Origin: Agelas oroides
Lineage: Eukaryota; Porifera; Demospongiae; Agelasida; Agelasidae
Length of the DNA: 64,000 bases
Reading direction: 5' to 3'
Assembly: GCA_949130485.1 (NCBI GenBank)
Contig: OX422196.1
Coordinates: 3,950,889-4,014,888, forward strand
The translations under genes and the position numbers were made by a program. Numbering within the stretch: the stretch's first letter is position 1; the number at the start of each line of letters is the position of its first letter. Below, one piece after another: positions 5,814 through 51,766 of the stretch. The notes beneath the pieces are model-generated. The model worked only from the letters and a program-made list of their open reading frames with translations, was not told the DNA's origin and ran no database searches.

Positions 5814-7274
5814 TTAGTGCCAAAGTAATGCTGTCCATGCTCCTCCTCTTGTCTTCCTATATACATCTGATGGGATTTGTTCTCTTCTCGAGTTCTGATA
5901 TCGTGAGGTGCTGTGTTTGTACGGCTTGAGCCGGTTAAAATGGACGATCATTCTTTGACCACAGTTGTTTACCTCCTGCACTCCGTATGTAACATCTGAC
6001 AATTTCTTGACCACAACAAATGGACCCGACCATGGTCTGTAGAGCTTTCTCGATTTCCCTCAGGGCACTTATGGCAACAGTACACAGACGTGATCTCCTG
6101 CTTTGAATGGGTTTCCATGTACCCTCTGATTATAGAGCTCCTTCTGGCGTTCTAGCTGTCGTGCTGTTCTCTCTCTTACTCTGGCATATGCTTCTCCTAG
6201 AGACGCTTTGAGCGTCATGGCATACTGTGACAGTGGCATTGTTTCTATCCCTGGTGCACCATACATAAGCTCCACTGGCAAATTTCGCCTGCCGTCCAAA
6301 CATTAGGTAGAATGGCGTAAACCCAGTAGTAGGGTGGACACTTGTGTTGTATGCCATACAAATTTGCCTCACAAACTCATCCCAGTTCTCTGGGTGATCC
6401 TCTACAGAGGTAGCCAGGCTCTGCAACAGCGTTCTGTTCCATCTTTCCACCAACCCATCTGATTGTGGGTGGTAGGGTGTAGTCATGGTTTTCTGTATGC
6501 CCAATAGCTTGCACACCTCAGCCAAGAGATGGGATTCGAATTGGCGTCCCTGATCGGAGTGGAGTTACTCCGGTGGCGAAGAACGACAGAACATTTCATT
6601 CACTAACTTCCTTGCAACCACCACAGCTTCTTGGCACAGAATTGGGTATGCCTCTACCCATCGGGTAAAATAATCGGCAGCCACAAGTATGTACGAGTTC
6701 CCTGATGAGGATTCAGGTAGATGTCCCAGAATGTCTGTCGCTACCATTTGCATAGGGTAGCCCACTTGGACACTGACTATGGAGCTCTGGGTTTCGGATT
6801 TGGCATCTTCCTCCGGCCACACAACTTGCAAGAACTGCACCACTCTTTCACATCAGCTGCATGCCCTGGCCAGTAGAATCTCTCTCTCAGCTTTTCCAGT
6901 GTCTTGTTCTCTCTCAGATGAGCTCCTAATGGTCCACCGTGCAGGTGGTGCAGGATTTCTTTTCTCTGCTTCTTTGGGACCACCCACTGGTAAAGGATAT
7001 TCCCTCCATCTTTATCCTCGAACCGGCGCGTAAGCACACCACTAGAAATCACCAGTTGGTCCCACAGCTGCAATAGTTGGTGGGCTTGTCGGCGTTTCGA
7101 TTTAACGGCATCTGCAGTTGGCCGCTGGCCAGTCTCTCTTGCTTCCAGAACAAACTTGAGGTTGGGGTCCTCCTTTAGTAGTTGTCGTAGTTTCACTAGT
7201 GATCTGTCACCTATCGGTGATGCATCTATGGATATGGGGCTCACAGCCACTGCCATTCCCTGGTCATGGTCCAT
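5814..7274 (-). pseudogene. Gypsy integrase region, frameshifted
   Basis: Broken reading frames in series on the minus strand. 6777-7274 holds the H2C2 zinc-binding domain (HHLHGGPLGAHL followed by CSSCKLC). 6565-6843 begins the catalytic core with the first Asp in VATDILGHL. 6130-6525 continues with TPYHPQSDGLVERWNRTL, carrying the catalytic Glu. Frames then shift to 6069-6299 and 5814-6014, giving the C-terminal tail (KLYRP-like region next to the LTR). At least three frame changes separate these pieces. Described as remnants only. Confidence 0.8.
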
Positions 7275-7295
7275 CCTTCCACACTGCTCACACGG

Positions 7296-8942
7296 TCACC
7301 ATGACAATGCATCTGCATTGGCATGTTTCCTTCCTGGCCGGTGCACAATGTTAAAGTGGTACTCCTGCAGTTTCTCCAGCCACCTGGCCAACTGTCCCTC
7401 TGGCTCCTTGAACGACTGCAACCAGGACAGCGAACCATGATCCGTCCTGAGAGTAAACTCCCTGCCCAGCAGATAGGGGCGGAATTGCTCCGTGAACACG
7501 ACTACAGCCAACAACTCTCGATGGGTCACACAGTATCGACGTTCTGACTTGCTAAGAGTACGGCTGGCAAATGCAATTACATGCTCCTTACCTTCCTCGT
7601 CCAGCTGGGATAATACTCCACCAATTCCAGTGTTACTGGCATCTGTGTCCAAAAGGAATGGCTTAGTGAAATCGGGAAACACCAGAACATGCAGGTGCAG
7701 TGCACAGCTTCTGGCGTAGTTCAGCAAACGCTTCTTGGCATTCACGTGTCCACTCAAATGTCACTGTCTTCTCTGTGAGTCGATGGAGTGGCTTAGCAAT
7801 AGTTGCAAAGTCTCTGACAAAGCGACGGTAGTAGCTGGCCAGCCCTAGGAACTTCTGAACGTCCTTGGCTGACTGTGGAATTGGCCAAGAACCAACTTGA
7901 TCAATTTTCCTGGGGTCAGTGGCTACTCCCTCCCTCGAGACTTCATGGCTGAGGTAGAACACTTTCTCTCTGAAGAACGCACACTTGCTAGGTTTGAGCT
8001 TCAGTCCAGCTCCCCTCACTTGTTTGAACACGTCTCATATATTGCAGAGATGCATTGTACGGCTGGCAAATGCAATTACATGCTCCTTACCTTCCTCGTC
8101 CAGCTGGGATAATACTCCACCAATTCCAGTGTTACTGGCATCTGTGTCCAAAAGGAATGGCTTAGTGAAATCGGGAAACACCAGAACATGCAGGTGCAGT
8201 GCACAGCTTCTGGCGTAGTTCAGCAAACGCTTCTTGGCATTCACGTGTCCACTCAAATGTCACTGTCTTCTCTGTGAGTCGATGGAGTGGCTTAGCAATA
8301 GTTGCAAAGTCTCTGACAAAGCGACGGTAGTAGCTGGCCAGCCCTAGGAACTTCTGAACGTCCTTGGCTGACTGTGGAATTGGCCAAGAACCAACTTGAT
8401 CAATTTTCCTGGGGTCAGTGGCTACTCCCTCCCTCGAGACTTCATGGCTGAGGTAGAACACTTTCTCTCTGAAGAACGCACACTTGCTAGGTTTGAGCTT
8501 CAGTCCAGCTCCCCTCACTTGTTTGAACACGTCTCATATATTGCAGAGATGCATTGTCAAAGGAGCGTCCCACCACGATCATATCATCAATATACACCAG
8601 GCAGTGGGTCATCTGAAGACCTGCCAGCACCAAGTCCATCCATCAGCCTCTGAAAAGTATAGCAGGCCCATTGCATAAACCAAAAGGCATGACATTAAAT
8701 TCATACAATCCATAGGGGGTACAGAAAGCAGTTTTTTCTCTATCTTGTTCCCCCACTTCAACCTGCCAATACCCACTCACTATGTCAAGGGTAGAGAACC
8801 AACAAGAACCAGAGAGGGTGTCCAAGGTGTTGTCAATCCTTGGAATGGGGTAAGCGGTTTGGGCTCCCCCAACCATATAGCACAGTATCCTCCATGCACA
8901 ACTACCACAATAGTAACACATAACACAGCATCCTTTCTGCAC
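7296..8942 (-). pseudogene. Gypsy reverse transcriptase and RNase H region, frameshifted
   Basis: From the right: 8643-8942 has the RT fingers and palm start (FSTLDIVSGYWQV, then MPFGLCN), interrupted by small insertions near 8650; the YIDD catalytic motif lies in another frame near 8590. The thumb and connection segment (LKPSKCAFF, then FLGLASYYRRF) occurs twice because of the tandem duplication. RNase H follows at 7296-7757 with DTDASNTGIGGVL, THRELLAVV and TDHGSL. The fragments lie in different frames, so this is a decayed copy. Confidence 0.82.
7559..8556. repeat. 499-bp tandem duplication inside the retrotransposon
   Basis: The block 7559-8057 is repeated as 8058-8556, identical as far as I can read it. 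It duplicates the RT thumb/connection and the start of RNase H; both copies encode the same 122-residue open frame. Since the surrounding element is decayed, near-perfect identity means either a recent duplication or an assembly artefact. Confidence 0.9.
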
Positions 8943-23908: not shown

Positions 23909-24305
23909 CTTGTACTTGCTATAGTGATACTTATATAATCACACCCACACACAACATTTACATACACAGCTATATATGACAGAACAAGACCTGTAACTAG
24001 TCAACTACAGTCAGTTTGTGAGGGGTCTTATGTGAAGCTCTAAAGCGCACAGGATTTCAAGTTGTGATTCCTGATCATTTTGTTCTTGATCTCTGACTTG
24101 ACGTTAGTGACAGACAGTAACATAGTTTCCTCTTAATGGTGGATAAATTCTACCAATAACTGTTATGTCAGCAGTGCGGTGACAGAGTGTGTAACATTCA
24201 ACCAGAACTGTACAAGCCATCACAACTGAGATGGCAATGACCTCAGCACAACAAAGCTATCTTGCACTAGATTCTAACTGCAGTTTGTTCATTACAATGT
24301 CTCAG

Positions 24306-24478
24306 GTCTTGCTGAGAAGACCATTGAAATCAATGGAGTGACCACTCCTAAGGGAATGACAGTCCAACTGCCCATCCATCTCATCCACCACAACCCAGAA
24401 TTCTGGACCAAACATGAGAAATTTGACCCAGAACTTGTGCATACTGCCATGGCTCTGAACCCTAGAAATCTCCAGTAG
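24306..24478 (+). pseudogene. Cytochrome P450 exon relic, copy A
   Basis: Reads LAEKTIEINGVTTPKGM, then TVQLPIHLIHHNPEFW and EKFDPE before a stop at 24476. This matches the strand and PERF-region segment of CYP3/CYP5-like P450s just upstream of the haem-binding loop. The ExxR helix and the haem Cys loop are not found nearby, so it is a lone exon relic. It precedes the 57-bp array directly. Confidence 0.55.
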
Positions 24479-24545
24479 CACAAGAAGGGTACCAAGTTGT
24501 AATCATTAAGGAATATAGCTACATGACAACTAAGAGGTGAGATTG

Positions 24546-26826
24546 CTACCAGTGAGCACAAGCTGAACCTCACGTTGAGACTACTCCTTGAAACACTGCA
24601 TGCTACCAGTGAGCACAAGCTGAACCTCACGTTGAGACTACTCCTTGAAACACTGCATGCTGCCAGTGAGCACAAGCTGAACCTCACGTTGAGACTACTC
24701 CTTGAAACACTGCATGCTACCAGTGAGCACAAGCTGAACCTCACGTTGAGACTACTCCTTGAAACACTGCATGCTGCCAGTGAGCACAAGCTGAACCTCA
24801 CGTTGAGACTACTCCTTGAAACACTGCATGCTACCAGTGAGCACAAGCTGAACCTCACGTTGAGACTACTCCTTGAAACACTGCATGCTACCAGTGAGCA
24901 CAAGCTGAACCTCACGTTGAGACTACTCCTTGAAACACTGCATGCTGCCAGTGAGCACAAGCTGAACCTCACGTTGAGACTACTCCTTGAAACACTGCAT
25001 GCTGCCAGTGAGCACAAGCTGAACCTCACGTTGAGACTACTCCTTGAAACACTGCATGCTACCAGTGAGCACAAGCTGAACCTCACGTTGAGACTACTCC
25101 TTGAAACACTGCATGCTACCAGTGAGCACAAGCTGAACCTCACGTTGAGACTACTCCTTGAAACACTGCATGCTACCAGTGAGCACAAGCTGAACCTCAC
25201 GTTGAGACTACTCCTTGAAACACTGCATGCTACCAGTGAGCACAAGCTGAACCTCACGTTGAGACTACTCCTTGAAACACTGCATGCTACCAGTGAGCAC
25301 AAGCTGAACCTCACGTTGAGACTACTCCTTGAAACACTGCATGCTACCAGTGAGCACAAGCTGAACCTCACGTTGAGACTACTCCTTGAAACACTGCATG
25401 CTACCAGTGAGCACAAGCTGAACCTCACGTTGAGACTACTCCTTGAAACACTGCATGCTACCAGTGAGCACAAGCTGAACCTCACGTTGAGACTACTCCT
25501 TGAAACACTGCATGCTACCAGTGAGCACAAGCTGAACCTCACGTTGAGACTACTCCTTGAAACACTGCATGCTGCCAGTGAGCACAAGCTGAACCTCACG
25601 TTGAGACTACTCCTTGAAACACTGCATGCTGCCAGTGAGCACAAGCTGAACCTCACGTTGAGACTACTCCTTGAAACACTGCATGCTGCCAGTGAGCACA
25701 AGCTGAACCTCACGTTGAGACTACTCCTTGAAACACTGCATGCTGCCAGTGAGCACAAGCTGAACCTCACGTTGAGACTACTCCTTGAAACACTGCATGC
25801 TACCAGTGAGCACAAGCTGAACCTCACGTTGAGACTACTCCTTGAAACACTGCATGCTACCAGTGAGCACAAGCTGAACCTCACGTTGAGACTACTCCTT
25901 GAAACACTGCATGCTACCAGTGAGCACAAGCTGAACCTCACGTTGAGACTACTCCTTGAAACACTGCATGCTACCAGTGAGCACAAGCTGAACCTCACGT
26001 TGAGACTACTCCTTGAAACACTGCATGCTGCCAGTGAGCACAAGCTGAACCTCACGTTGAGACTACTCCTTGAAACACTGCATGCTGCCAGTGAGCACAA
26101 GCTGAACCTCACGTTGAGACTACTCCTTGAAACACTGCATGCTACCAGTGAGCACAAGCTGAACCTCACGTTGAGACTACTCCTTGAAACACTGCATGCT
26201 GCCAGTGAGCACAAGCTGAACCTCACGTTGAGACTACTCCTTGAAACACTGCATGCTACCAGTGAGCACAAGCTGAACCTCACGTTGAGACTACTCCTTG
26301 AAACACTGCATGCTACCAGTGAGCACAAGCTGAACCTCACGTTGAGACTACTCCTTGAAACACTGCATGCTACCAGTGAGCACAAGCTGAACCTCACGTT
26401 GAGACTACTCCTTGAAACACTGCATGCTGCCAGTGAGCACAAGCTGAACCTCACGTTGAGACTACTCCTTGAAACACTGCATGCTACCAGTGAGCACAAG
26501 CTGAACCTCACGTTGAGACTACTCCTTGAAACACTGCATGCTACCAGTGAGCACAAGCTGAACCTCACGTTGAGACTACTCCTTGAAACACTGCATGCTA
26601 CCAGTGAGCACAAGCTGAACCTCACGTTGAGACTACTCCTTGAAACACTGCATGCTACCAGTGAGCACAAGCTGAACCTCACGTTGAGACTACTCCTTGA
26701 AACACTGCATGCTACCAGTGAGCACAAGCTGAACCTCACGTTGAGACTACTCCTTGAAACACTGCATGCTACCAGTGAGCACAAGCTGAACCTCACGTTG
26801 AGACTACTCCTTGAAACACTGCATGC
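24546..26826. repeat. 57-bp tandem array, about 40 units (copy A)
   Basis: Head-to-tail units of 57 bp containing CAGTGAGCACAAGCTGAACC and ACTCCTTGAAACACTGCATG. All units look identical except for one position: CTACCAG versus CTGCCAG (about a dozen of 40 are G). Since 57 is a multiple of three and the unit lacks stops, it is open on both strands (751 and 847 residues), which is no proof of coding. Copy B has 13 units, all of the A type. Confidence 0.95.
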
Positions 26827-29653
26827 TTGAAACAATACATGGAAGTGACTGCACCTTACAATGAGGCATAAAGTGGATCTTTATCTAGGTATTTGGTCAA
26901 AAGGCATCAACCATGGCTGCAAAACACTGCAGCCACACAAGAACATTAATCAGTTTGATACACAGGAACTGCATTGCTTGGGAAAAATGAAAATCACTTC
27001 CTCTTGGGACATGCTAGCTGGAACCACCACAAGTGGCTTTGGATGTGCTGTTTGATTGCATGTGGGCAATGTTCCCTGCAGGGTACCATAATAGAATGCA
27101 CTTCATTTCTACTTTTCTATAGGTACATGCAGTGCTCAGATGGTATCGTAGCAACAAATACATACATCACTATGGGTTAGTCCACTGTGTAGTCGTAGTC
27201 TCCTGAACTGTTCGCATTATACTTTTGGTATGCAGAACAGGTAAATCTGTTTACATGCTTGCATGTAATGTAACAGCTCATAAGAAGAGTCTAGGGACAA
27301 AGTAACTGTACGTGTAACCACTAACAAGACAGGCAACTAGAAAACATAGGATAGCCTCCTTCATAAGTTACACCACCCTCACTTTTCACTAGAGGCTAGC
27401 TACAAACTGACTTTCCTTCATACATGACTGTTAACAATAAGTTTCATTTTATACAGCATTCATTATGTAAATGACATCATCATATTTGTGTAGGATGTTG
27501 AGTGTTATGAATGCCTCTAATATTTAGAAGGAAAAAATGTGTACCATGCAATCAGCAAGGTATATTTTGTAGTTTACATTTACAACCAATGAAACAGCTC
27601 AATGCTGCCCTAAAGTGCAGTACACCAAACATGCAGTTCGATAGGCTCAATGCAGCAATATCACCTGCAGCCATCAATTGAAAGTAGAAGTCAGGCATGC
27701 CGTGCAGATATTGAGTGTCTGGTTGGTCAGTTTGATGGCCAAATATCTACTTGCTGTCTTGTTTGGTTCAGTGTCAATGTTTCATTGTTGCTTGCTTTTT
27801 GAGACTTATTGTGAATTGCAAATTTTTTTGTCCATGGCACATTCAACTGTACAATGAATTGTTAATTGACTCTGCTGTTGGTCATGCTATAAATAATATT
27901 GTACCGCTGATGCAAGCTACTGGAATGGATAACAGTATTGACATGTAATTATATAGTCCTCGCCAAGGATTAGTGTGTAGTGTGCATTAATTACAGCTGC
28001 TTTACCTCCAAAATCGATGGGTGCTTTAATTGGCTATGTATCTCAACCTCATTCTCATACTCAGCCTAGCTGTCTGCATCAGAGTGGACGGCTCCAAGAT
28101 AAGCTGTATTTAGAAAGTGAATCATTACATGGGCCATTTGATAGGAAATGGGTGTTTGGGGTGATTTCTGGAAATTTGCACATTTATGCACCAAATTATA
28201 CTTTAGTATTTAACACTTTCCTGGCAAAGAATGCTTGTTGAAATAACTTATCATTGCCAAGTTATATTTCTTAAAACCAACTCATGTACAAAAGACAACT
28301 TTGAGAAATAACAGTTTAAAGTTTGACAAATGTTTAATGCTGGATGTGGACACCATGTTCTGGTTCTCCTAGCTCAGCCATTTGCAATTCAGTTGAGTAC
28401 ATTTACTCCTCAGGAAATTGACTATAACAACTGTTTGAGCAAACTTATTCACTTTCAAGCTCTTTTTGTGCTAGTTTCCTTGCTTTGTCAAAATTAGGCA
28501 TAAGAACATTTGGCTGGTCACCCTCATTTAAAACACCTCTAGCAATCACAGTGCCAAGACCCAATTAATCTTCACTCCATCAGAACCTCTGCCATGACAG
28601 TAAGTGTTCCTGGGACCTCCAAAGCAAACTCATAGAATATTCCTCATCCTGTTCAGTGAATGCAGCTAAGAGTGCTTCATCTTCACATGCTAGAATGCTT
28701 ATGTCATCACTAGTAGTAGCTATAGCTCATAGCAGCTGTATAAAACATGCAAAGTGGTGACACTACTAAATGTTCTACAGTTATAGCTAGGCAACTTACC
28801 CAGAAATACAGCTGCATTCTGCATGCCATGTGGATATTTCCCACTTAGTGAGCACTTTCTGACATGGGAGTATGCATATGTTTAACCTCAGGATGGTGGC
28901 ATTTCAAAATTGCAATAATCCCAGTTTCGTCAAAAATTTCGTATTTCACATATTTAGAGCTACTGAATATTCATAAATTTCACCCTAAGGCCCCTTTTCC
29001 TATAAAACGGCCCACATCGTTATTAGGTAGATATACTGGTCCCACTGGTTCCCTGGTTCTAATTTTCTGCCTTAAGAAGCAACAAGCCAGATATGCCCAT
29101 TTGAAAAACTGCTGCTGTGATCAGGCAACAGCGTGTGTAGGTCCTACGAAAGGATATGCAGGTTTGTGTTGTAGTACGAGACTCTCTGCTTACATAAACA
29201 GCATACATTCCACCCCCAAGATGCAAAATAAAGGAATCATGTAATTTAAACTAAAACAACTTTAAAATTTACATTTCCATTGCACCTATGTGCGCTTGAT
29301 TTGCCATATATATGGCTGAATTGGTCACTATTTGGTGAAATTGGAAACACTCCTTCTAACGATGTTCTTCCAGGCATAAATCTGCCCGTTCACCTCACCG
29401 AGTGTGCCTTTGTCTGCCTCAACACTTGTTCAGTTCCTATCAGTGCTGAAATTTCACACAAACACTGCTTTATCAGTTCCATTTTGGTGATCGCTGGTGG
29501 GGTAATGTCACTTCACTACAAGACCCTAAGCTGGCTACCCCATTGTTGTCTTGTCATGGGCAAGCCGAGACGAAAAAATTATGGCTGCCCTTTCATTGAC
29601 TGGTGAGATGCTAAATACAAAATTAGACTAATGCTTGAAAGTTTTTTATCATA
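26827..29653. other. No supported gene; end of duplication A and unique DNA
   Basis: 26827-28094 is shared with copy B and shows no recognisable protein. 28095-29653 is unique. A minus-strand open stretch at 28445-28560 (GVLNEGDQPNVLMPNFDKAR, then a stop) looks coding-like in composition but I do not recognise it. Two open frames at 28864-29244 and 29280-29606 (+) have no visible domain. Confidence 0.3.
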
Positions 29654-37621: not shown

Positions 37622-40600
37622 CTAGTCAGTTGAATGCTGAAATTTCTGTAAATACAGACCCACATTGTGATGTCCCTTGGTTTCAGCCAACTGACGAGGT
37701 GTTGCATTATAGAAACCTCTAATGGTAGGAGAACAATTCAGTTCCTCAACAAAAAACTGAACTACTTCTAGCTGGCCATGTTTTGCTGCAGTATGGAAGG
37801 GAGTGTTCTTGCGAATGTTTCTTTGGGTTGGATCACAGCATTTCCCTAAGGTGAGGAATTTCACAATGTCTAAATATCCATCGTGTGCAGCAAGGTGAAG
37901 TGGTGTTTGTTTGTCTGCATCCAAACATGATGGGTCACACCCTTGTTCATCAATCAAATACTTCATAATATGTAGGTGACCGTTGTAGGCAGCGTTATGA
38001 AGAGGGATACGGCCATACCTGCCTGGAATGTTTGGACTACATTTCAGATCAGCAATGAAGAATTTAAGTATTTCCAAGTGGCCACAGCATGCTGCCCAAT
38101 GGATGGGAGTGATGCCAGAAGAGTTTCTAGATATTGGACTACAGTGCTTTTCCAAGGTAAGGAATTTCACAATGTCCAAATGTCCCTTGGCTGCAGCAGG
38201 ATGTAGTGGGGTCTCTTTATCTCTATCCAAACATGATGGGTCACACCCTTGTTCATCAATCAAATACTTCATAATGTGCAAATAACCCCCTGAAGTAGCA
38301 CCATGAAGTGGGGTATGGCCATGAAAACCTGGAATATTTGGACTACATTTCATATCAGTGATGAAGAATTTAAGTATTTCCAATTGGCCATACTGTGCTG
38401 CCCGATGGATGGGAGTGATGCCGTCAGAGTTTCTAAATGTTGGATTACAGTGCTTTTCCAAGGTAAGGAATTTCACAATGTCTAAATGACCATTGTGTGC
38501 AGCACGGTGAAGTGGTGTACTTTTGCTTTTATCCGAACATGACGGGTCACATCCTTGTTCATCAATTAAATACTTCATAATGTGCATATGACCTCTTGCA
38601 GCAGCATTATGAAGAGGGGTACGGCCAGAGTTGCCTTGAATACTTGGATTACATTTTAAATTAGTGATAAACAATCGGACTATGTCTATGTGGCCATTCA
38701 GTGCAGCAATGTGTAAAGGGGTGTTCTTCCTTGTTGTCAGTGAAGATATGAGGTCTTTCATTGGTTTGTACTTCTCAAGCTCCTCAGTTAGAAATTTGAC
38801 AATGCCGAGACCACCTTTTGCACAACTAATATGTAATGGAGTCCATCCACTCTCATCCTGACACAGAGGTTCTACCTGCTGCTCAGTAACAAGATGCTTG
38901 ATCACATCAAGGTGAGCACATTCAGTAGCCACATGAAGTGGTGTTCTCCCATGTTGACCTAGACATGCAGGGTTGCAGTTTCTCTCATCAATGAAATACT
39001 TGAGTACATCTAAACTCCCTCCCTGTGCAGCTGCGTGAAGAACAGTGTTTCCATACTTGTCTTTCTGAAGTGGATTTTGGTGCTCGTCTGTAAGAAACTT
39101 GACTCTCTCCAGATCACCTCTCCTGGCAGCAAGATGCAATTCAAGTATATTCTCAGTTATTTGATGCCCACTAGATAACTGAAGTGTGCTCTCTTCATCC
39201 AGCTCATCTAGTTCTTTAGATAATGGGTCCTGTATTGTAGTTCAATTTAGAGTTCACTTGCTGCTAATGTAATGTTAAGGGTGGTTGGAACTAGGAGGCT
39301 GGTACATAAGAAACAGTTCTTTCTCAAAGGTATTTATTTCCGAGATACAATCCCCTAGCAACTGGCCGCATGTGCGCCCCTAATTAGTTCCGACCACCCT
39401 TAATGAAAGTTGTGCACATGTACAGTAGGCATCACTGAAGAACTCTTAGAAGATTCCACAACACAAATATTATCTGCTTTTGCACAATTGCATACTTTTC
39501 TCACTCACTATGACATACATACACACACACACTGGCCTCTTCATCATCTGAAAACCTGCATGAAGTTTTGTCATCAGTGACGATACTGATCCCCATGGCA
39601 GAGTCAGCATCAATGTCGTGTGTTGTCTGTAGTGCTGCCTGAAACACTGGGACCCTCAGTTCTGCCACAGATTCTAATATGGAAAGATCATGTCAAAGGC
39701 TTGTCGATCCACAGAAATGAAACAAGATATATTCACCACTTTACAACAAAGTGCACTAGCATCCACCACAAAGCTCAATCCGGAGTTACTATAAATAGAT
39801 AATTATGAATTTTACTATTTACCAAGTTACATTCCCTCTTCCCTTTGTGGTTGATGTGCCCTTGGTTATGTGTAAAAGAAAGTCAACTTAATGCTTTCAG
39901 AATTGTAACTGCAGCAGATTTTTAAAGGGAAATGTAGATCTATGCATAAAGTGAACATAAACTTGCAGCTTTCAGGTTGTATTATTTAGACAGTAGTACA
40001 AATGGTATGGTAGCTTAAATTAACTTTGCATAATGTATGTCTGCAGTCTATAAACCCAGTACAGTATTCCTGGCTCACCAGTTTCTTCTGGTTCAGATCC
40101 ATTCTCATCTCCATTCTCATCTCCCTATGAATAATGTGCATTGAGATTTATTCAATGGTGTGAGTTGGAAAATGAAAATCTGGCAGTCACTGAGAACTGC
40201 CAGTCACTGAGAACTGCCAATGTTCTAACCACTGAGTTGCAACCAGGTGACCATCAGTTCTTGCAATTCTCTCTCTATATATATTGTAGGTACAGAATGC
40301 TTTGGCCATACACCAATGACATGCAACTACACAGTAACTACAAACCTTGGCAACAAACTGGTAGTCTCCACAAGTCAATCTGATCACACCCTCTGCTGCC
40401 AGGGCCCTCTCTTGCTCACTGGACAGTGGAAATATCTCCTGTTGCACAAATGAGGGTATCTGGAAGATGAGCTGCAAACACCCCTCTTCCACTCGACAGA
40501 GACGTAAGACACTTTGAGGTGAAACGTGCAATATTCTACTAAGTCTGTATTGAAATTTCTTTAGTTCTTTCACAGTGAAGTCGTCGTACACAGAATCTAC

Positions 40601-43045
40601 TTTCACAACGAAATCAGCATGATCAGCATCACTCTTTGACCCATACTCTGGTGGACATTCATAAACTCTACGCTTTGAATATTGGTCAAATTCTTTCTCA
40701 TAGTTCTGAAGCTCAGCTTTATCATGGTCTGCACCAAGTTCATTCACAATGTGTTCAATCACATGATAGTTGAAAAAGGAAACATAGTCTTTAATAATGT
40801 ACAGCACTTTTTCGATATTTCCTGCAGTCTGAAGCTCTTGGAAGAAGGTTTGAAGCACTGGCTTTTGAGAACCCTTGTAGACAGGGTCAAATGCACCCAA
40901 TGAAAGGAGGTGGGTGACTAGCTTGTCCACAGGAACATTTCGTTGGCACAGTGACTCATAGACTCTGGAATGAAGGTGCCCAAATTTAAGTACTATATCT
41001 TCTGACTCCACACACAGCCGGATTCTGAGCCTCTCCTGTTGCTCGGGGGTAAGTTCACTTACCTTGAGGTAAGGGAATGAGCTAGTTATGGAAGTGGGTG
41101 TTGGAGAGCTAATCTCGAAGGGGTTCTGAGATCTCTCACTCTGATTGGAAGATCTGGGTCCAGGACTGACACTAGCATCTTCAGAAGTGAACGTCTCATC
41201 TGACATTGGTTTGCTAGCACAAGAGTCTTCCTGTTTTCTCAAGGGAGTTTGCTTGGTAGTTTGAGGAGCCGCAGCTGAAACCACTGAAGGTAGGTTAGAC
41301 AAAAGACAGGGTACTGCTGTTAATTAGCAGTTTCAAGTGTCCAAGTGTTCCAGTTTCCATTAGTAAAATGTCACCATGCAGGATTGCTGCTATAGCATGG
41401 ACGCTATTCACAAGTACTTACATAAAATTATTACACAAAAACATTAACATCTTGACTGTAACCTGAATGTTGTTTAGCAATGGTCAGAGCAAGTGCACAA
41501 TTGTCTCCAGCTGCAGGGCGTCCCACTACTTTCACCACAGCTCGCCACGTTGGTTCACCAAATCTCTCCACATTGTAGTTTCTCTTCAGCCAGCAGGTGA
41601 GCATCTCTGACAAACATTCTTTGGAATTCCCAGGATTGTCTGTTTGAATCATTTCGAGATGTCCAGAGTCAATTCGGAGACCTCTGCCAATAGCCTTCCA
41701 ACTCTTAACAACTGGCATCATCTCTTCCAGTACATCAAGGAGATCATCTTCTCCTATCAGGGAGAGACAATAATGTTGCATGCCCACCTGTATGTCAATC
41801 ACTTCTGTCTTAACGACATCCCTTGGAAATAATTTTTACTGATCCAGACTAACCTAATGGAGAATCATCCACAGTTGGGAGCACTTTATCCACCTGTTCT
41901 GACCCTACATGGAGAACAATTCAGACATGGTAGTTCAAGATGCTACAATTCTGTCTGGCCATCAGGAGGGACAGGAACAGGTAGACCCGGTAGGCAGTAA
42001 GCTACAGAACTTGTTGGAGGAGAAAAAAGTCCTCCAACACCTCTAATTATGCTCTCTTCTATTTTATAGAGTTTCATTGCGCTTCAGCTGGACTGAAGAA
42101 TGTTCAGAATGCAAACTACGAATCATAAATGTATATACTGCAGTACAATTACCAAAACTTCAGACAAGAGACTCAGTTGCTAGAAAGGCACCACAAAAAA
42201 CTAATCAACTTTCACAGAACACCACACCCACTACAACCAGAAGCAACAGGTGTTTCGTAAATTTCTAAGCTTTGTTTTTCTGACTTTACTGTGACATTAT
42301 TTGCTTGCACACCATGGCCACATGAAGTGTTGCAACATATTTGCTCATCAACACAAGACAGTTTATAATAATTACAGTCCCAACAACAGAACATACATGC
42401 GCAATATCACAACTTCCAAGTATACAAACTTTCAAACCATTACGTAGGAATTACTGGCTTATGTGCCACCTGTAGAAGCATAAATTTGTTTAGAGAAGTG
42501 TTTGCAAGCAGGAACAACATGAAATCAAGTAATCAGCACTGATCAACATGAGCTCCTCTTGATCATAAATGTTTCTACAAGTGACAAGCAAGTGACCACC
42601 CCGGAAAAATAGTTATCATAAATCATCGTTGCTAGCTACCTTTCTTCCCTGTAGGGCCAGGATTCCTCTCCACATCTCCTGCCATCAGCAGTAGCCTCAG
42701 CACCACTGCATACACCCCCAGCAATAAGCACACCCCAATCTGAATGCTCGGCATATCCGCCATCCCTCTGACTTCAGCACTCGGGGCAGAGCCGCTTCTC
42801 AACTTGGGACGACACACCTTGCGACTCCTCCCGATGGAACGCCTGCGGAACGTGTATCTAAATATCAGTGACAGGGAGACGACCGCCATGCAGCCCTGGA
42901 GCAGAAGAGGTGTGCTGTTCATGACCTCCCCCACGCCCCATCTTGCCGCCCTCCACGGGACTGGGAGCGGGCGGCAGTCGTATCGACACTGGTGGTAGTA
43001 GTTGTGTCCGATTCGAGCCCGCCACGTAGCGAGATCGATCCCCAT
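37622..43045 (-). CDS. 2A-peptide, DEATH domain and ankyrin-repeat protein, seven exons, complete
   Basis: Minus-strand exons 43045-42640, 41904-41854, 41804-41463, 41283-40346, 40124-40079, 39673-39519 and 39229-37622 join in phase to 1181 codons plus stop. Residues 1-134 hold two hydrophobic stretches, then DVERNPGP (124-131), a canonical 2A ribosome-skipping motif. The DEATH domain (about 170-265) has LLDVLEEMMPVVKSWKAIGR and KECLSEMLTCWLK. A conserved unnamed central domain follows (about 320-579; VDKLVTHLLSLGAFDPVYKG, SFFNYHVIEHIVNELG, VIRLTCGDYQF). The last exon has about 15 ankyrin repeats. DEATH plus ankyrin suggests an immune or apoptotic adaptor. If skipping works, a short membrane-directed leader and a 1051-residue protein starting with Pro are made. 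Start chosen at MGIDLATW (AAATGG context); a later ATG at 42763 is possible. The exon 6 donor is the least certain edge. Confidence 0.8.
39279..39399. mobile_element. 121-bp MITE with TTAA target duplication
   Basis: TTAA (39275-39278) then GGGTGGTTGGAACTA; right end TTAGTTCCGACCACCC then TTAA (39400-39403). TTAA duplication fits Kolobok or piggyBac-type elements. Lies in the last intron of the DEATH/ankyrin gene. Confidence 0.75.
42653..42676 (-). other. 2A ribosome-skipping motif (DVERNPGP)
   Basis: Encodes D-V-E-x-N-P-G-P exactly, the motif where the ribosome releases after Gly and restarts at Pro. It is preceded by Leu-rich hydrophobic sequence (VCLLLGVYAVVLRLLLMAG), as in metazoan 2A sequences that double as N-terminal signal sequences in sea urchin NLR proteins and some LINE ORFs. 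Confidence 0.9.
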
Positions 43046-49438: not shown

Positions 49439-49829
49439 CTTGCTATAGTGATACTTATATAATCACACCCACACACAACATTTACATACACAGCTATATA
49501 TGACAGAACAAGACCTGTAACTAGTCAACTACAGTCAGTTTGTGAGGGGTCTTATGTGAAGCTCTAAAGCGTACAGGATTTCAAGTTGTGATTCCTGATC
49601 ATTTTGTTCTTGATCTCTGACTTGACGTTAGTGACAGACAGTAACATAGTTTCCTCTTAATGGTGGATAAATTCTACCAATAACTGTTATGTCAGCAGTG
49701 CGGTGACAGAGTGTGTAACATTCAACCAGAACTGTACAAGCCATCACAACTGAGATGGCAATGACCTCAGCACAACAAAGCTATCTTGCACTAGATTCTA
49801 ACTGCAGTTTGTTCATTACAATGTCTCAG

Positions 49830-50002
49830 GTCTTGCTGAGAAGACCATTGAAATCAATGGAGTGACCACTCCTAAGGGAATGACAGTCCAACTGCCCATC
49901 CATCTCATCCACCACAACCCAGAATTCTGGACCAAACATGAGAAATTTGACCCAGAACTTGTGCATACTGCCATGGCTCTGAACCCTAGAAATCTCCAGT
50001 AG
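49830..50002 (+). pseudogene. Cytochrome P450 exon relic, copy B
   Basis: Same reading and same stop as copy A (EINGVTTPKGMTVQLPIHLI, then EKFDPE). Identity of the stop shows that the relic was already dead before the duplication. Confidence 0.55.
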
Positions 50003-50069
50003 CACAAGAAGGGTACCAAGTTGTAATCATTAAGGAATATAGCTACATGACAACTAAGAGGTGAGATTG

Positions 50070-50811
50070 CTACCAGTGAGCACAAGCTGAACCTCACGTT
50101 GAGACTACTCCTTGAAACACTGCATGCTACCAGTGAGCACAAGCTGAACCTCACGTTGAGACTACTCCTTGAAACACTGCATGCTACCAGTGAGCACAAG
50201 CTGAACCTCACGTTGAGACTACTCCTTGAAACACTGCATGCTACCAGTGAGCACAAGCTGAACCTCACGTTGAGACTACTCCTTGAAACACTGCATGCTA
50301 CCAGTGAGCACAAGCTGAACCTCACGTTGAGACTACTCCTTGAAACACTGCATGCTACCAGTGAGCACAAGCTGAACCTCACGTTGAGACTACTCCTTGA
50401 AACACTGCATGCTACCAGTGAGCACAAGCTGAACCTCACGTTGAGACTACTCCTTGAAACACTGCATGCTACCAGTGAGCACAAGCTGAACCTCACGTTG
50501 AGACTACTCCTTGAAACACTGCATGCTACCAGTGAGCACAAGCTGAACCTCACGTTGAGACTACTCCTTGAAACACTGCATGCTACCAGTGAGCACAAGC
50601 TGAACCTCACGTTGAGACTACTCCTTGAAACACTGCATGCTACCAGTGAGCACAAGCTGAACCTCACGTTGAGACTACTCCTTGAAACACTGCATGCTAC
50701 CAGTGAGCACAAGCTGAACCTCACGTTGAGACTACTCCTTGAAACACTGCATGCTACCAGTGAGCACAAGCTGAACCTCACGTTGAGACTACTCCTTGAA
50801 ACACTGCATGC
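50070..50811. repeat. 57-bp tandem array, 13 units (copy B)
   Basis: Same unit as 24546-26826; all 13 units carry the CTACCAG form. The single-nucleotide variant found in about a dozen units of copy A is absent. Confidence 0.95.
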
Positions 50812-51766
50812 TTGAAACAATACATGGAAGTGACTGCACCTTACAATGAGGCATAAAGTGGATCTTTATCTAGGTATTTGGTCAAAAGGCATCAACCATG
50901 GCTGCAAAACACTGCAGCCACACAAGAACATTAATCAGTTTGATACACAGGAACTGCATTGCTTGGGAAAAATGAAAATCACTTCCTCTTGGGACATGCT
51001 AGCTGGAACCACCACAAGTGGCTTTGAATGTGCTGTTTGATTGCATGTGGGCAATGTTCCCTGGAGGGTACCATAATAGAATGCACTTCATTTCTACTTT
51101 TCTATAGGTACATGCAGTGCTCAGATGGTATCGTAGCAACAAATACATACATCACTATGGGTTAGTCCACTGTGTAGTCGTAGTCTCCTGAACTGTTCGC
51201 ATTATACTTTTGGTATGCAGAACAGGTAAATCTGTTTACATGCTTGCATGTAATGTAACAGCTCATAAGAAGAGTCTAGGGACAAAGTAACTGTATGTGT
51301 AACCACTAACAAGACAGGCAACTAGAAAACATAGGATAGTCTCCTTCATAAGTTACACCACCCTCACTTTTCACTAGAGGCTAGCTACAAACTGACTTTC
51401 CTTCATACATGACTGTTAACAATAAGTTTCATTTTATACAGCATTCATTATGTAAATGACATCATCATATTTGTGTAGGATGTTGAGTGTTATGAATGCC
51501 TCTAATATTTAGAAGGAAAAAATGTGTACCATGCAATCAGCAAGGTATATTTTGTAGTTTACATTTACAACCAATGAAACAGCTCAATGCTGCCCTAAAG
51601 TGCAGTACACCAAACATGCAGTTCGATAGGCTCAATACAGCAATATCACCTGCAGCCATCAATTGAAAGTAGAAGTCAGGCATGCCGTGCAGATATTGAG
51701 TGTTGGGTTGGTCAGTTTGATGGCCAAATATCTACTTGCTGTCTTGTTTGGTTCAGTGTCAATGTT

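Follow-up and report, generated by a model that had tools for sequence, protein, structure and literature searches.

A predicted 2A-ended membrane leader as the first exon of a DEATH/ankyrin gene family in the sponge Agelas oroides

A DEATH/ankyrin gene of the sponge Agelas oroides very probably begins with an exon that encodes a hydrophobic leader ending in an exact 2A/StopGo core, as judged from reading frame, splice phase and comparison with its paralogs. The gene lies on the reverse strand of the window, a stretch of 64,000 nucleotides (assembly GCA_949130485.1, contig OX422196.1, positions 3,950,889 to 4,014,888). We consider it likely that the 2A sequence splits the membrane leader from a cytosolic DEATH/ankyrin protein during translation, with some product staying fused and being directed to the endoplasmic reticulum (ER).

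Exon 1 (406 nt; Table 1) opens with an ATG at 43045 in the context GAAATGG, and its frame stays open up to a splice donor (AAAG/GTAGCT after 42640) that ends the exon in phase 1. The encoded product counts 131 residues to the final proline of AGDVERNPGP. Two hydrophobic stretches ending in DVERNPGP had been described here by the initial annotation, and both the open frame and the hydropathy bear this out. They correspond to residues 44-62 and 103-121, are candidate membrane helices by hydropathy, and enclose a basic loop with 11 Lys/Arg in 40 residues. The core is preceded by Leu-rich residues and an AGD context (LRLLLMAGDVERNPGP), positions that were compared with those given in PMC12846837. 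There, D12, E14, N16 and Leu 7 of F2A are reported to be important for activity; the window sequence carries Leu at positions 6 and 7 together with AGD, matching F2A positions sensitive to mutation. The 2A core itself lies within the open frame, and its continuation across the first intron is predicted. A single-sequence AlphaFold2 model of the leader was weak (mean pLDDT 55), with a helix at residues 97-127 and a block of pLDDT 70-82 at residues 101-130, and a search for PDB relatives of the leader gave three matches, the best at E 0.89.

The intron proposed between 42639 and 41905 agrees with the splice sites. The accompanying claim, that exon 1 continues in phase into the DEATH domain, stood with respect to phase and gene order; the direct join did not, as a predicted 51-nt exon (41904-41854) intervenes. 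From exon 1 to exon 4, every junction that was read falls in phase 1. The best PDB relative of the DEATH domain was FADD, a weak match (E 0.17). The second part of the central domain resembles TRADD-N at low significance: Pfam TRADD-like_N matched weakly in 7 of 17 members (best E 0.0077), the window member scoring 16.5 bits, below the cut-off of 23.7. A single-sequence AlphaFold2 model of the central domain showed the order b-a-b-b-a-b at low confidence (pLDDT 44), and a PDB profile search with the TRADD-N-like region returned no TRADD match and one unrelated match (E 1.8). One more small exon is likely between 40079 and 39229. The window gene holds both a Death domain and ankyrin repeats, the Ank score being far above its cut-off, and has ankyrin repeats downstream instead of NACHT and LRR.

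Table 1. Features of the DEATH/ankyrin gene, in window coordinates.
Feature	Position	Strand	Description
Exon 1	42640..43045	-	Open frame and splice donor; 131-residue leader with a C-terminal 2A, followed by TGKK plus one base of the following codon
Hydrophobic segment 1	42860..42916	-	STPLLLQGCMAVVSLSLIF; Kyte-Doolittle 1.70 over 19 residues
Hydrophobic segment 2	42683..42739	-	IGVCLLLGVYAVVLRLLLM; Kyte-Doolittle 2.50; runs into 2A
2A/StopGo core DVERNPGP	42653..42676	-	Exact consensus; predicted unmade bond between last G and P
Exon 2, predicted mini-exon	41854..41904	-	51 nt; phase 1 on both sides; splice sites
Exon 3, DEATH domain	41463..41753	-	Pfam Death match at E 1.3e-4; score 22.5 bits, marginally below the cut-off of 22.6
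Exon 4, central domain	40346..41283	-	938 nt; predicted helical region, then TRADD-N-like alpha/beta region
Exon 5, small, predicted	40079..40124	-	From splice sites and frame in the window sequence alone
Ankyrin-repeat exon and stop	37622..39229	-	Pfam Ank E 3.4e-104, 14 matched stretches; acceptor from sequence

The 2A core is abundant in this genome. In the 259-Mb assembly there are 179 matches to the DNA pattern for DVExNPGP and 284 places that fit D(V/I/M)ExNPGP (44 + 35 + 67 + 138), of which 268 have known coordinates; the reversed-pattern control gave 0, ruling out a chance match of the core. A leader query of 123 residues that stopped short of the core found 80 matches in the genome (the window and 79 others), assigned to families A and B, and an exact 2A, here D(V/I/M)ExNPGP, stood at the expected place in 73 of these 80 leaders picked without the core. 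The remaining seven leaders are mutated, truncated or decayed. Among them, L029 retains an intact frame but reads DVARNPGP, meaning that the motif is not absolute; in L030 a loss within the 2A shifts the frame; the frame of L035 is broken ahead of a 2A remnant, DIEKKPGP; the L032 leader is decayed; and homology is lost before the 2A in L031, L033 and L034. Broken frames were seen in several paralogs.

Leaders and downstream exons are linked across the genome. A central-domain match follows on the same strand within 12 kb in 74 of the 80 leaders, and 68 of the 73 A/B 2As lie upstream of a central-domain exon. Searching from the other side, the central domain gave 152 matches, 150 of them listed, from which a best-92 cut was chosen by the analyst. 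A 2A lay at most 12 kb upstream on the same strand for 99 of the 150 listed matches and for 79 of the best 92, as against a mean of 1.97 and a maximum of 7 for the best 92 in a shifted control (1-3 Mb, 500 trials). A central-domain match within 12 kb was found on the opposite strand for 2 of 246 2A places and upstream on the same strand for 19 of 246, as tandem arrays would give. A genome-wide Death list, in which 150 of 870 candidates were scored, was left out of the counts. Two regions, G000 C1:4.06-5.10 Mb and C3:0.32-0.82 Mb, hold mostly same-strand arrays of 2A-leader genes, often 10-40 kb apart, and broken copies are scattered within both arrays.

The 19 family-A loci, the window among them, share much of this gene structure. 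A phase-matched mini-exon of 51 nt with splice sites is present in 16 of 19, as is the DEATH exon; the central domain was found in 15 of 19, and ankyrin repeats in 8 of 19, within the stretch read. Neither mini-exon nor DEATH exon was found in the stretch read for L015, L019 and L020. Seven family-A loci showed no ankyrin repeats in the 1.5-2.6 kb read past the central domain, so some paralogs may lack them. Of 20 loci read over 9.9 kb, 16 gave a DEATH match downstream (L028 weakly), and none was found in L015, L019, L020 and L025. The predicted donor after the 2A is in phase 1 in all 19 family-A loci, and the DEATH acceptor is in phase 1 in all 15 whose start of this exon is shown; L001 and L003 fit the same phase, and L005 has a weak DEATH match with no clear acceptor. 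Two further loci, L038 and L041, carry a 2A and a DEATH-type domain in one uninterrupted exon; these domains match the window DEATH domain at E 3.5e-6 and 1.2e-5, respectively, and the L038 piece scores E 1.5e-4 against Pfam Death (22.3 bits, cut-off 22.6). Collinearity of the paralogs, the shared mini-exon, the phase-1 donors and these one-exon 2A-DEATH genes together uphold the initial annotation in its assignment of the leader to the DEATH/ankyrin gene. The structure of the gene, its copy number, linkage and conservation are supported by these data.

The distance from leader to DEATH exon is 2.4-6.7 kb in family-A paralogs, which leaves room for other first exons, and for 13 members of the best-92 central-domain set no 2A is listed within 12 kb. 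Both observations speak for alternative promoters, with the 2A exon as one of several first exons, limited to certain tissues or conditions, and much of the DEATH protein made without a leader. In the window, however, the first intron measures 735 nt, and the predicted exons 2 and 3 lack a Met before the DEATH domain (the earliest comes after 11 residues of exon 3), so that the start codon evidently comes from exon 1. We regard such promoter choice as quite unlikely to account for the gene.

A separate transcript of LINE or other origin, lying upstream of the DEATH gene by accident, was the refuting case named for exon 1. As in the sea-urchin genome, where 2A also occurs in non-LTR retrotransposons (PMC4981915), retroelement copies of 2A are apparent here. 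A further 105 2A places fall outside the A/B, C and D leader families, and 29 of them were read (20 short loci and nine longer ones). Seven of the 29 (L045, L053-L056, L062 and L064) are LINE-like, with PHD-type Cys/His after NPGP, supported by Pfam PHD in L045 (E 1.1e-6) and by eye in the other six; some of the rest resemble, by eye, additional leaders that end at a phase-1 donor. Host and retroelement 2As thus appear to coexist in this genome. For the window locus a LINE origin was rejected, as TGKK, the donor, the mini-exon and the DEATH exon follow the 2A, with no PHD-type Cys/His. Leader, mini-exon, DEATH and central domain keep the same order across tandem paralogs, and the one-exon arrangement of L038 and L041 likewise argues against a separate transcript. 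So does the course of DNA identity: against nine paralogs it is 0.78-0.97 across exon 1 (30-base bins, gaps counted as mismatches) and drops to 0.25-0.47, on the same count of gaps, from 14 bases past the donor. Some conservation reaches about 90 bases upstream of the ATG. An accidental LINE-type neighbour is therefore very improbable, and the leader is best read as exon 1 of the DEATH/ankyrin gene.

Selection on the leader was estimated from 12 family-A paralogs, which had been retrieved with the exact motif and retained where the start could be recognised. Pooled Nei-Gojobori dN/dS was 0.43 over the leader and fell to 0.105 at alignment columns 31-60, around hydrophobic segment 1, the most constrained part; this suggests that the leader itself has some role. 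Over GDVERNPGP, dN was 0 and dS 0.38, with synonymous codon changes. Because these leaders were picked by the exact motif, the absence of nonsynonymous change is in part a product of that choice; the search pattern did not, however, demand the invariant R or the A and G that open AGDVERNPGP.

According to the proposed mechanism, exon 1 would be a membrane-leader cassette ending in a working 2A. At ...AGDVERNPG, most translation events would release a 130-residue leader with two helices at its C-terminal Gly, followed by resumption at Pro and synthesis of an independent cytosolic product, a DEATH - central (TRADD-N-like) - ankyrin protein beginning with Pro, which we infer to be of the innate-immune or cell-death type. 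A minor fraction would stay fused, and the leader would carry this fusion to the ER membrane. When the 2A is read, segment 1 would, by residue count, be approximately 68-86 residues from the active site and already outside the ribosome, so that ER engagement could tune the ratio of skipped to fused product; the end of the ribosome-translocon path is put at 65-70 residues in PMC2978324. Active skipping, a membrane-directed leader and secretion of the un-skipped product, as proposed in the initial annotation, would be consistent with the sequence, the pattern of selection and published precedent. According to PMC2978324, a translocon-engaged sequence upstream of 2A can inhibit skipping, and thus the fused form might dominate in vivo.

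Besides families A and B, two other leader families that terminate in this core were found. Family C has 65 matches, at least 55 with a listed 2A (a lower bound, since 16 2A places are unlisted), and family D has 39, of which 37 have a listed 2A; together the A/B, C and D leaders account for at least 163 of the 268 listed 2A places. Downstream content was sampled at selected loci for families C and D. DEATH-type similarity to the window was found in the family C loci L037 (E 2.5e-7) and L039 (8.2e-9), as well as in L038 and L041, which also belong to this family, and was not recognised on reading L036. In family D, L042 is similar to the window DEATH domain at E 7.3e-24, a region for which Pfam gave nothing, and no DEATH-type similarity was recognised on reading L046. 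A listed central-domain match lay within 12 kb of only 8 of the 54 2As in family C and 1 of the 36 in family D. The motif WRARIGH occurs near the N-terminus of the window leader (residues 8-14) and of the family D leaders L042 and L046, the leaders being otherwise dissimilar. It may be a conserved motif or a trace of distant homology; leader homology between families A and D beyond WRARIGH was unsupported (BLASTP E 8.6).

These families bear on a further alternative, that the 2A-like motif is inactive or mostly bypassed, with the leader acting as an N-terminal signal anchor and the product being a membrane-tethered DEATH/ankyrin receptor. A pair of hydrophobic stretches flanking a basic loop would suit an anchor, as would the inhibition of 2A by ER-engaged upstream sequence, and TRADD-N proteins with a transmembrane helix are described from an oyster by Kaur et al. 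(PMC8195603). An anchor, however, has no need of the exact octapeptide, which is kept in 73 of 80 A/B and 37 of 39 D leader matches, and leader families whose searches have no place in common (A against D, E 8.6) end in it. We therefore think it unlikely that the leader is a mere anchor, and favour a 2A that separates leader and DEATH/ankyrin protein in most translation events.

The closest precedent is the 2A of sea-urchin NLR genes. In Strongylocentrotus purpuratus, a 26-residue 2A-signal heads DEATH-NACHT-LRR proteins, and an N-terminal signal of this kind yields a cytosolic product upon skipping and an exocytic one without it, both activities having been measured (Roulston et al. 2016, PMC4981915). 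The sponge gene shares with this system, as described there, an N-terminal 2A on death-fold genes (here by gene structure), a hydrophobic signal merged with the 2A, and membership of a multigene family. It differs in that a leader exon of approximately 130 residues with two hydrophobic stretches heads a DEATH - central - ankyrin protein, known here from DNA, and in that other leader families stand on LRR genes and 2As lie upstream of some NACHT exons. Compared with the 2A/StopGo sequences of picornaviruses and non-LTR retrotransposons, the D(V/I)ExNPGP core and the Leu-rich upstream residues are alike (PMC12846837), whereas here the 2A belongs to a host gene with introns, lies close to a splice donor, and is proposed to serve two-product targeting and not polyprotein processing.

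In the sponge Amphimedon, an expansion of 357 TRADD-N proteins has been described, with Death-like domain(s), TRADD-N and then mostly ankyrin repeats or SH3 and LRRs (Kaur et al. 2021, PMC8195603); the window gene resembles this layout, its TRADD-N assignment being weak. The terms 2A-like, NPGP, ribosomal skipping, signal peptide and leader were all absent when the main text of that paper was searched, and neither 2A-like nor skipping occurs in the main text of a paper on the NLRs of Dysidea avara. No report of 2As in sponge immune genes appeared among the literature matches listed for 2A with sponge, Porifera or Amphimedon, or with NLR/NACHT, as judged by titles and the starts of abstracts; we do not claim absence from print. 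A study by Rao et al. (2025) in Cell Reports reportedly surveyed cellular proteomes.

More tentatively, 2A-ended membrane leaders might constitute a portable phase-1 first-exon cassette that heads death-fold immune genes of no fewer than three classes (DEATH-TRADD-N-ankyrin, DEATH-LRR and DEATH/NACHT), with ER engagement of the first helix setting the skip/fuse ratio and one transcript giving a cytosolic or a membrane/lumenal sensor. If so, then 2A recoding, with sponge and sea urchin taken together, would be a recurring and perhaps ancient trait of innate immunity in animals and not a viral speciality. A single animal genome with at least 163 leader-borne 2As would offer a broad collection of natural variants in which to study the function of 2A and signal sequences, and would allow a test of whether co-translational recoding serves early animals to put one immune protein in two compartments.

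For the NACHT class, a search gave 314 candidates, 105 of which were scored and listed. A 2A lay upstream within 12 kb of 12 of these 105 NACHT exons, and within 6 kb of 8, against a mean of 0.56 and a maximum of 3 in the shifted control; within 12 kb, a single NACHT exon had a downstream 2A on its own strand, and no exon had a 2A on the opposite one. Some NLR-type genes here thus seem to carry a 2A too, as in the sea urchin. In L038 (G000 C1:4215-4604) and L041 (C2:25969136-25969525), the 2A-DEATH exon precedes a large exon that encodes LRRs and a region resembling the central domain. In the large exon of L038 the LRRs are clear, NOD2_WH reaches E 0.072, and a pattern search found no P-loop; the two loci may represent a relative of the NLRs from which the NTPase core has been lost.

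Elsewhere in the window, retroelement-like ORFs lie at 6133-7760 on the reverse strand, integrase-like and RNase H-like by eye. A long tandem array with the unit ASEHKLNLTLRLLLETLH on one strand, open in both directions, occurs in two copies, at 24295-26880 and 49819-50865; by eye, these are probably satellite repeats.
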